Shown: positions 42,044 through 44,262 of the stretch, piece by piece
Numbering within the stretch: position 1 is the first letter of the stretch
Layout: each line of letters opens with the position of its first letter
Source of the DNA: Oceanospirillaceae bacterium
Lineage (GTDB): Bacteria; Pseudomonadota; Gammaproteobacteria; Pseudomonadales; Balneatricaceae
Length of the DNA stretch: 44,325 nt
NCBI GenBank assembly: GCA_013373085.1
Contig: JABXIM010000084.1
Coordinates: 1-44,325, forward strand
Reading direction: 5' to 3'
Translations under genes and position numbers: made by a program
Notes under the pieces: model-generated
Seen by the model: the letters and a program-made list of their open reading frames with translations, nothing else
Databases searched by the model: none
What the model was told of the DNA's origin: nothing

Positions 42044-42517
42044 ATGGCAAAGAAGAAACCAAAGAACACCGGCTCGACCATCTGTCTCAACAAGAAGGCG
42101 AAGCACGAATACCACATCGAAGAGAAATTCGAGGCGGGGGTCGCGCTCACCGGTTGGGAGGTCAAGAGCCTGCGCGAAGGCCGCGGCCAGCTGGTCGACT
42201 CCTACGTCGTGCTCAAAAATGACGAAGCCTGGCTCGTCGGGGCGCACTTCACGCCATTGATCAGCGCCTGCACCCACGTCGTCGCCGACCCGCGACGCGA
42301 CCGCAAGCTGCTATTGCACCGGCGCCAGATCGACAAGCTGTCCGGCGCCGTTCAGGCAAAGGGCTACACCTGCGTGGCGCTGGCGCTCTACTGGAAGCAG
42401 GGCCGCGTCAAGTGCGAGATCGCGCTGGTGAAAGGCAAGAAGCTGCACGACAAGCGTGCCGCCGAGAAGGACAAGGACTGGGATCGCCAGAAGCAACGCC
42501 TGATGACGGCCCAGTAA
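42044..42517 (+). CDS. smpB: SsrA-binding protein SmpB
   Basis: SmpB carries tmRNA into stalled ribosomes in trans-translation. The 157-aa chain has the OB-fold sequence [38 protein letters not shown] and the C-terminal [25 protein letters not shown] tail (split: [17 protein letters not shown]) that mimics mRNA. It is followed by the tmRNA gene. No ribosome-binding site is present because the promoter is almost on the ATG. Confidence 0.97.
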
Positions 42518-42674: not shown

Positions 42675-43034
42675 GGGGGTGACTTGGCTTCGACGCCGAT
42701 TACGAACCCTTGGGTGCATGTCGAGTTCGTAGTGAATCTCGTAAATCCGTCACTACACTAGTTATAGTTGCTAACGACGATAACTACGCTCTGGCTGCTT
42801 AAGTCAGCCAGCGCCGCGCTTTAAGGTGTCTGTAACTTAAAGATTTTGCGGTGTCATACGAGACAGGATCGCCCGGAAGCTTTGCCCTAAGCTGAACGGT
42901 TAAAACTAAAAGGGCTCGCCCACAACACCCTGGCTCTCGGGTCGTGACGGGTTAATCCAATAGAGAAGCCTAAACATGTAGAGCTTAAGGCAGAGGATTG
43001 GCGGACGCGGGTTCGAAACCCGCCACCTCCACCA
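42675..43034 (+). ncRNA. ssrA: Transfer-messenger RNA
   Basis: A one-piece tmRNA of 360 bases. The 5' end GGGGGTGACTTGGCTTCGAC and the 3' end CCGCCACCTCCACCA form the tRNA-like acceptor stem (GGGGGUG with CACCUCC). The T arm is GCGGGTTCGAAACCCGC, and CCA is encoded. Pseudoknot-like segments surround the tag frame. It rescues stalled ribosomes with SmpB. A terminator follows nine bases later. Confidence 0.97.
42770..42802 (+). other. tmRNA tag reading frame
   Basis: GCT AAC GAC GAT AAC TAC GCT CTG GCT GCT TAA is described residue-wise: it encodes ANDDNYALAA, ending in the ALAA degradation signal read by ClpXP. The preceding alanine comes from the charged tmRNA. Confidence 0.92.
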
Positions 43035-43042
43035 AATTCAAG

Positions 43043-43079
43043 AAAACGGGGTTACCGGCACGGTAACCCCGTTTTTTTT
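43043..43079 (+). terminator. Strong terminator of ssrA
   Basis: AAAACGGGGTTACCG pairs with CGGTAACCCCGTTTT around a 3-base loop, followed by a T-run of eight in total. Confidence 0.95.
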
Positions 43080-43105
43080 GAATTTTAGTTAAGGCGGGCT
43101 TGAGA

Positions 43106-43216
43106 ACCCGCGGAGCGGGTTCGAGTCGGACGCACGTAGTGCGGGAGACAACGTGGCCGCTTGCGGCAACGGCCCGAAGGGCGAGGGTCGAAGACCCGAG
43201 TAATCCCGCCACCTCC
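43106..43216. repeat. tmRNA-linked hairpin-chain repeat, unit 1
   Basis: Five small stems follow one another: ACCCGC-GGA-GCGGGT (extendable to eight pairs), CGCAC-GTA-GTGCG, GCCGC-TT-GCGGC, GCCC-GAA-GGGC and GGGTC-GAA-GACCC. The unit ends in CCCGCCACCTCC, the sequence that ends tmRNA just before its final ACCA. It is 93 percent identical to unit 2 by my count (8 differences in 111). Confidence 0.85.
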
Positions 43217-43290
43217 TGTGTCCGTGTGGCACCTGTCCTACCGAAGCGAAAGCTCCATTTCTTTGGCATTTGCGTTCGGGCGAGTTAATC

Positions 43291-43401
43291 ACCCGCGGAT
43301 CGGGTTCGAGTCGGACGCGCGCAGCGCGGGAGACAATGGTGCCGCTTGCGGCAACGGCCCGAAGGGCGAGGGTCGAAGACCCGAGTCATCCCGCCACCTC
43401 C
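43291..43401. repeat. tmRNA-linked hairpin-chain repeat, unit 2
   Basis: Same length and hairpin order as unit 1, 185 bases downstream. In the second stem the arms are CGCGC and GCGCG instead of CGCAC and GTGCG, so paired positions changed together. It also ends in CCCGCCACCTCC. Confidence 0.85.
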
Positions 43402-43602
43402 GGCTCCCGTTCCAAACTACCTCAGAAGCAAGCCCCGAACAGAGATGGGCAGGATGGGTGGAGCCGCCACTATACCTTCCTCGCCGGTTGGCTCCGGGTT
43501 CCTGGCGGCACCCCATCAGCCACGTCCCTTGATGAATTCAGGGTCCCGCCAGAAGACCAAAGCACCCGGCCAGACCGGCTCCCGCCAGTGACCCGAATCG
43601 TA

Positions 43603-43722: not shown

Positions 43723-44262
43723 ATGGAGCTTTTTCTAATTGCGCTGGCTTTTCTGGTCATCGTTTTATTCGTCAAAACCAGGAAGAAAAACAGCATCGAA
43801 GCATCATCCGATGCTGCAGAAAATCCCTTTTACCTGAAGAGCCGGCTTTTCACACCGCCGGAACTCAAGTACCTCGAAGCGCTTGAACAGGCCGTAGGCA
43901 GCCAGTACAGGATAATGGGAAAGGTCCGGATTGCGGATATTTTCGGCGTCAGGAAAAGTAAACACTCCTACAGCCACTTCAACAGGATCAAGGCCAAGCA
44001 CTTCGACTACGTGCTTTGCGATGCCAGAACCTACAAGCCCGTTGCGGCGATAGAACTCGATGATGCCTCACATCAGCGCAAATCGCGCGCAGAGCGCGAT
44101 GACTTCGTCAACCGTATCTGTCTAGCCAACGACTTCCCCCTTCTTCGTGTGGCCTTGCAGCACGACTACGACCTCGGCGTTATCAAACGCTCGATCGAGG
44201 ACAGCATCGGCGAACACCCCACCGGTGATTTGGACCTGGGCATTCGGGCCCAGCCCGAGTAA
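43723..44262 (+). CDS. DUF2726 protein with N-terminal membrane anchor
   Basis: 179 aa. A membrane helix (about residues 3-18, LFLIALAFLVIVLFVK) is followed by a DUF2726 domain (about 40-165): FTPPELKYLEALEQAV, FDYVLCDARTYKPVAAIELD, DASHQRKSRAERDDFVN and DFPLLRV. The arrangement of acidic and basic residues around IELDDASH resembles a PD-(D/E)XK nuclease-like fold, as suggested for this family, but activity is unproven. AT content is a little higher than its neighbours, and its position behind ssrA suggests accessory DNA. AGGTA lies before the ATG. Confidence 0.85.
   Translation: MELFLIALAFLVIVLFVKTRKKNSIEASSDAAENPFYLKSRLFTPPELKYLEALEQAVGSQYRIMGKVRIADIFGVRKSKHSYSHFNRIKAKHFDYVLCDARTYKPVAAIELDDASHQRKSRAERDDFVNRICLANDFPLLRVALQHDYDLGVIKRSIEDSIGEHPTGDLDLGIRAQPE

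Follow-up and report, generated by a model that had tools for sequence, protein, structure and literature searches.

The window (the whole stretch of DNA that was analyzed, 44,325 nucleotides of a contig from an Oceanospirillaceae bacterium) contains, close to its right end, the tmRNA gene ssrA, followed on the same strand by two copies of a repeat. According to Pfam, smpB lies upstream of ssrA (42044-42517) and a DUF2726 gene lies downstream of the repeats (43723-44262). The features of the locus are:

42675..43034, + strand: ssrA (tmRNA), donor of the copied 3' end (ARAGORN; Rfam RF00023, 206.9 bits)
43040..43078, + strand: intrinsic terminator of ssrA, located ahead of RtT copy 1 (inverted repeat 43040-43057/43061-43078 and a T run; positive in the terminator test)
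43078..43220, + strand: RtT (tRNA-linked repeat) copy 1 (RF00391, 58.7 bits for a cut-off of 45; our model R1, 60.1 bits)
43093..43111, + strand: inverted copy of the ssrA 3' end in copy 1; it supplies the 5' side of both the outer stem P1 (43093-43098) and hairpin P2 (43104-43111), and folds with 43205-43210 and GCGGGTTC
43118..43124, + strand: GGTTCGA, which corresponds to the T-arm half of the ssrA end and precedes the body of copy 1 (sequence; motif of alignment A2)
43125..43202, + strand: body of copy 1, a chain of hairpins at the T-loop position (alignments A2 and A3; model R2 match 43127-43202)
43203..43216, + strand: copied ssrA end of copy 1, ATCCCGCCACCTCC (13 of 14 positions equal to ssrA; final ACCA lost)
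43264..43405, + strand: RtT (tRNA-linked repeat) copy 2, left part decayed (RF00391, 48.3 bits; folding z 0.01)
43310..43387, + strand: body of copy 2 (model R2 match 43312-43387)
43388..43401, + strand: ssrA end as copied in copy 2 (agrees with ssrA at 13 of 14 positions; without ACCA)

Both copies are members of the Rfam family RF00391, RtT, which they match over the full model (positions 1-130) with E-values of 4.8e-9 (copy 1) and 1.7e-6 (copy 2). The Rfam match of copy 1 begins at 43078 and ssrA ends at 43034: the element is on the same strand, directly downstream of a stable-RNA gene. The original prediction, made from the sequence alone, knew of no named family that fits; RtT is in fact the Rfam name for the tRNA-linked repeats of E. 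coli. It described two 111-bp units, 185 bp apart, that finish with 12 bases of the ssrA end, and this is accurate. A comparison of 43106-43216 with 43291-43401 gives 103 identities over 111 positions. On the + strand of the window, CCCGCCACCTCC is present three times only: at 43019 (the ssrA end), 43205 and 43390. The ungapped repeat is longer, 153 nt with 82% identity (43073-43225 and 43258-43410). The compensatory change that it saw in the second stem (CGCAC/GTGCG) is also real, and consists of one pair (43134 A>G with 43140 T>C), the third change (43137 T>C) being in the loop; the two window copies give a single covariation event only. The outer stem had been missed, as had the inverted copy of the ssrA end that precedes the units: upon folding of copy 1, 43093-43098 pairs with 43205-43210.

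The window holds two degenerate RtT elements behind ssrA. Copy 1 folds with a z score of -3.26, which none of 200 shuffled sequences equals, and copy 2 with a z score of 0.01, which 90 of 200 shuffles equal. Both retain 12 contiguous nucleotides of the ssrA end and have lost the last four, the yardstick being the 18-19 bp of the E. coli repeats. They are probably relics, since ACCA is lost in both, copy 2 folds like its shuffles and copy 1 stands behind the terminator of ssrA. The body loops of copy 1 are GTA, CTTG, GAA and GAA; from fold and sequence, neither body has GGA in its loops. The P2 loop of both copies contains GGA, and may be a residual CsrA site. In itself, the window is thus ordinary and of modest interest: two decayed members of a family, behind ssrA.

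The genome from which the window comes has two other members. The first is behind tRNA-Pro (contig C35); its inverted strand is specific to Pro and its sense end is lost. The second is behind tRNA-Phe (contig C94:32776-32870), and its body is reversed inside the copied end. An ssrA-linked unit in a congener (G529, locus L290) has a nearly complete end (18 of 19 positions), and three more ssrA-linked members were found, in G554 (L292, from the window's family), G048 (L038) and G442 (L126).

The family has a long history. PMC8144298 cites a first description in 1978 and, from Rudd 1999, 22 tRNA-linked repeat genes at ten loci of E. coli K-12. It states that the 3' end of the repeat reproduces 18-19 bp of the tRNA or rRNA gene upstream, that the rrn-linked repeats are conserved within Enterobacteriales, that an early starvation phenotype was later withdrawn, and that no function is established. 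The name of the family and the end rule were therefore already known in E. coli. Almost half a century of description has left these repeats without an agreed function or origin, and the present comparison makes both testable.

RF00391 matches occur in 66 of the 369 genomes of the window's class (129 matches; 24 genomes above the cut-off), and our own model finds the family in 58 of the 99 genomes of the window's family, both counts being obtained with strict filters. A tRNA or tmRNA gene lies upstream, on the same strand and within 1 kb, at 103 of the 129 matches. The end test was restricted to these 103; the other 26 include 18 with no same-strand tRNA at all, seven of which have less than 100 nt of upstream sequence. 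At least 14 nt are shared with the last 19 nt of the upstream gene in 84 of the 103 units, and at least 18 nt in 76. As a control, the unit was compared with the end of a gene of different amino acid specificity, and 0 of 2060 such trials reach 12 nt. Less than 12 nt are common to the match and the upstream gene end in 16 cases. The 84 end-sharing units stand behind thirteen kinds of genes, tmRNA included. The original prediction asked about further copies close to tRNA or tmRNA genes: they exist in many genomes.

Outside Gammaproteobacteria the Rfam model detects only one of nine motif-bearing genomes (a tenth, that of E. whittamii, has 7 matches), and the internal motif and our own models were therefore used. 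The scan of genome contigs with the internal motif, chosen to avoid selecting for tRNA ends, gave at least 118 stretches, of which 80 loci were used; it is not a census of the spread of the family. Among the matches listed, 76 of 85 have a tRNA upstream, with at least 14 nt shared in 58 of these 76 and at least 18 nt in 52. These 58 involve 15 kinds of tRNA, and 18 kinds stand upstream among the matches listed. According to the titles of the records, Alphaproteobacteria, Verrucomicrobiota (Spartobacteria, L130 and L186) and one bin of Bacteroidota (L134) are represented among these 58; the non-gammaproteobacterial records are metagenome-assembled bins whose labels are possibly wrong. A zetaproteobacterial unit (L172) agrees with the tRNA end at 18 of 19 positions, with one mismatch. 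L177 (Trp), L146 and L156 (Flavobacteriales) have less than 10 contiguous nucleotides in common with the end of their own tRNA. In alphaproteobacterial bins from the rumen (L152, L177, L180, L200), the RtT core that follows tRNA-Asn, Trp and Met is highly uniform. Two of these genomes (L152, L200) were tested with the Rfam model, which has no match in them. An Rfam scan of 20 loci, most of which have no tRNA upstream, looked for stable RNAs of other kinds (e.g., 5S) and found only RtT and tRNA.

The anatomy of the unit was deduced from alignment A2, which comprises 60 hand-chosen units (59 of 110 dereplicated units and copy 1 of the window). All have the same order: the inverted tRNA end, a short loop, GGTTCGA, the hairpin body and ATCC...CCA. 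This order places the body, a chain of hairpins of 62-98 nt, in the T-loop of the copied tRNA end, where it interrupts the sense copy (GGTTCGA^ATCC). The outer stem changes with the tRNA because the copied tail pairs with its own inverted copy: 87.7% of its cells are paired, compared to 70.1 in shuffles, and 107 cells are changed on both sides, compared to 39.4 ± 4.5 in shuffles (0 of 500). This in-register count is preferred to an earlier, looser test (8.3 of 12, compared to 7.0 in the control). For the whole structure of the 60 units, 90.7% of cells are paired, compared to 75.2% when shuffled (0 of 500). The paired changes sought in other copies are therefore seen, as strong covariation over 60 units from many genomes.

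The end of the unit is copied from the DNA of the gene, and not from the mature tRNA. Indeed, tRNA genes that lack CCA have units that lack CCA (L130 from Spartobacteria, the nearly identical L191, titled Proteobacteria, and L134 from Owenweeksia), and in L134 and L152 the copy extends into the native downstream DNA of the gene and its terminator. An RtT unit is thus built from the gene that precedes it: it contains a DNA copy of the last 18-19 nt of this gene and an inverted copy of the same end.

The body behaves differently from this gene-specific shell. In genome G015, the bodies of the Gln and Val units are 95% identical, whereas their ends agree at just 67% of positions. Among 138 units with a labelled tRNA and intact ends, 22 pairs that belong to different amino acids have a body identity of at least 0.85; the G015 pair is within a genome and the other 21 are between genomes. 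In a comparison of 97 of the 129 matches (those with the GGTT motif, a CA end and no N), the identity of bodies is 0.753 between different loci of the same genome (n=49) and 0.682 between units of the same amino acid in other genomes (n=1111); these pairs lack independence, and two of the closest pairs within a genome (G335, G055) are located at contig ends, so that each may represent one array split by the assembly.

The orientation of the body also varies. A reversed body is present behind tRNA-Phe in seven genomes, which are the window genome (L276), four congeners (L323-L326, L370, L374) and, as judged by eye, G014 and G551 (L365, L373). Forward bodies also occur behind tRNA-Phe (L295, L314). 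The T-loop of tRNA-Phe contains GATTC, compared to GAATC in most others; the orientation may follow the GAATC strand, but forward cases exist (L295, L314, L038). Contexts outside the T-loop were read by eye and carry no control count. They are D-loop bodies in partial copies of tRNA-Ser (L308, L368), bodies in the loop of another palindrome (L310, L313), bodies in other intergenic contexts in G504 (L357-L362) and head-to-tail body-body junctions (L374). In L368 (G015 C54:101364-101595), RtT-like bodies are located at the D-loop of 5' copies of tRNA-Ser upstream of the real gene, a mirror of the 3'-end layout. In G504, a genome of 2.4 Mb in which the model has 16-21 matches, the bodies (L357-L362, L310, L313) are beside or inside other palindromic repeats of the GTAGGAGCGCATT type.

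Some loci show larger duplications. In G122, G223 and G237 (L070, L057, L050, L095), what appear to be whole copies of tRNA-Gln or tRNA-Ser, with a T-loop interrupted by an RtT body, are found upstream of the intact gene; L070 (G122 C1:491261-491811) consists of three tandem copies of 213 bp. The array at E. coli proK differs in length among the seven sequences compared (six from E. coli and one from another Escherichia), with half a unit, one unit, one and a half units or two units. In E. coli strain 2011C_4037 (L259), an IS110-like IS621 transposase gene is near the half unit at proK, and other strains have REP-like sequence there. At L010:2248-2395, a match to a group II intron domain (Rfam RF02012, 115.5 bits) lies several hundred bases downstream of an RtT unit. 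Searches within the genera of G014 and G122 yielded a single genome apiece, and no empty site.

These observations, namely a shell copied as DNA from the local gene, bodies shared between shells, both orientations and other contexts, lead us to favor, with modest confidence, the reading that the RtT body is a small non-autonomous DNA cassette which is copied into the hairpin loops of duplicated tRNA ends, and whose arrays vary by recombination. The last 18-19 nt of the gene are duplicated as DNA, in sense and inverted forms, together with the downstream terminator at some loci. The cassette would then be copied into a hairpin loop, mainly that of the duplicated tRNA ends, presumably in a transposition-like event that would depend on a putative enzyme acting in trans, and the arrays would expand and contract by recombination between direct repeats. 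A more ambitious version is proposed only tentatively: the body would be a cassette present in at least three phyla (based on record labels), copied in trans into DNA hairpin loops, chiefly those of inverted duplications of tRNA or tmRNA 3' ends, in either orientation, by an insertion machinery that makes both copies of the target end. In this version, the cassette would be a type of tRNA-directed mobile DNA that differs from integrase elements, from REPs and from retroelements. Among the points against the cassette are that a mobilizing gene was not found, a confident body match being present near one of the 31 RAYT-like (Y1_Tnp) loci fetched, that 16 of the 103 matches have less than 12 nt of the gene end, and that forward bodies also occur behind tRNA-Phe.

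RAYT was considered as a mobilizer of RtT. Y1_Tnp was searched in 20 hand-picked genomes, ten with RtT and ten from the window's family with no match to the model. Divergent RAYT-like genes are present in all ten RtT genomes (below the cut-off only in G551) and in two of the ten others, according to our own sorting of 43 places by score and length. The 31 loci that were fetched cover 32 of the 43 places, the remainder being mainly canonical IS200-like genes. Body matches were found at L393 (confident, E 0.0004) and L386 (weak, E 0.24), and blastn returned mainly L393 and short weak matches. The flanks of the RAYT-like genes are generally devoid of bodies, so the relation between RAYT and RtT amounts to a weak co-occurrence, and the lead was not confirmed.

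A possible, if doubtful, alternative to the cassette is that RtT is a regulatory small RNA, produced by read-through of the terminators of tRNA, rRNA or tmRNA genes, whose GGA loops titrate CsrA (with Hfq), the tRNA end serving as a 3' module and selection acting on the RNA. According to PMC8144298, the E. coli repeats rrA, rrB and rrF, located downstream of rrn operons, yield processed transcripts that bind Hfq and CsrA via GGA motifs; PMC4986893 mentions Actinobacillus RtTs visible on Northern blots, and PMC7657543 tandem GA in RtT. Of 356 body loops, 122 contain GGA (58 ± 5.7 when the loops are shuffled) and none contains TCC, and the P2 loop contains GGA in both window copies and in 8 of 99 relatives. 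The strong covariation would also be expected under this proposal. The conserved GATGAG...GAGTA motifs of the units and the strand-specific GGA loops point to a role of the + strand as RNA. However, 37 of 110 units, and both window bodies, have no GGA in a body loop, reversed bodies behind tRNA-Phe would yield a transcript of the opposite strand, and a hairpin resembling a terminator lies upstream of 35 of 80 and 32 of 69 units (about 45%; less than 0.6% when shuffled). The helices of RtT contain 44 GU and 31 AC (p 0.17), unlike the tRNA stems of the fetched loci (65 and 2); this count is not significant alone and decay could give the same pattern. The wobble asymmetry in hairpins with one internal non-Watson-Crick pair (14 and 10) is too small, and the count given above, made on fixed columns, replaces it. 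The wobble counts and preceding terminators fit maintenance at the DNA level or by copying. A CsrA-binding RNA is kept as the main rival for part of the family, because of the GGA loops and of the binding of CsrA by the E. coli rrn repeats; the DNA-cassette and CsrA-binding RNA readings are mutually compatible. The original prediction hesitated between a structured RNA and a structured DNA that uses the end of the gene: this end is indeed part of the element, and DNA fits the relatives better than pure RNA, but the integrase-like copying that it evoked is not supported. The 3' ends of tRNA and tmRNA genes are classic integration sites, and the repeated 18-19 nt could recall the attR core of a tyrosine recombinase. 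tmRNA is described as an integration site in PMC11915505. That the units are the attachment-site debris of integrative elements specific for tRNA or tmRNA is nevertheless very improbable: the ends are copied anew for each tRNA while the bodies are common, so the core is not constant, an inverted copy of the end is present, the internal motif has 0 matches in 2.9 million viral contigs, and the two window genes beside the locus encode SmpB and a DUF2726 protein. The swapped ends, the inverted copies and the empty viral search led us to discard att sites.

Gene conversion alone, in which old units would diverge vertically with each tRNA gene and swap bodies via short homology (GGTTCGAC ... TAATCC), with no transposition, seems rather unlikely. 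The aligned units do have these flanks in common, same-genome bodies are more alike and arrays change through recombination; conversion between existing units could thus explain much of the likeness of the bodies, but not the reversed bodies. Bodies in the D-loop, non-tRNA contexts, body-body junctions and the patchy presence of RtT in the window's class and family (66/369 and 58/99, strict filters) also argue against it. A retro-copy, in which a mature tRNA with its CCA tail would act as primer and supply the end, by analogy with the primer-binding sites of retroviruses, is scarcely credible. An 18-nt reading of the copied part (positions 59-76) speaks for it, since of 75 units 62 have A at position 58, ten have C and three have T, but genes with no CCA give units with no CCA and copies run into gene-flanking DNA; the CCA content of the units where tRNA genes lack CCA made us reject this candidate.

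The comparison distinguishes a swappable, gene-specific shell, made of the inverted and sense tRNA ends and derived from DNA, from a shared body, which may be reversed or occupy other loops, and it also marks which units carry CsrA-type loops. This separation goes beyond the published accounts found in a literature search that left aside most subscription papers and all preprints.

RtT has features in common with several known systems. Like REP/BIME sequences, which are associated with RAYT, RtT elements are short intergenic hairpin DNA repeats, and RAYT-like genes exist in all ten RtT genomes tested, but these genes are mostly not flanked by RtT bodies; PMC2965389 mentions that rtT resembles some BIME-borne elements. 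RtT resembles the CsrA sponge RNAs of the CsrB/CsrC type in being a chain of hairpins, and 73 of 110 units carry GGA in a body loop, but each unit offers only a few sites (a window copy has a single one, in P2, and its body has none) and the position of RtT is tied to tRNA ends. With respect to RF00391, the consensus GGAUGAG...GGUuCGA...CCCGaAGgg...AUCC is shared and both window copies exceed the gathering score; RefSeq describes RtT as processed from the tyrT transcript, whereas the RtT of the window is behind ssrA, with copy 1 past the terminator and the ACCA end gone. The E. coli tRNA-linked repeats are also directly behind a stable-RNA gene, have a 3' end copied from that gene, often occur in multiple copies and have no established function. 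The window copies differ from them in that they retain just 12 contiguous nucleotides of the end. The tRNA and rRNA operons are those that PMC8144298 names for E. coli, whereas the present comparison adds tmRNA, other classes and phyla, and reversed and D-loop bodies.
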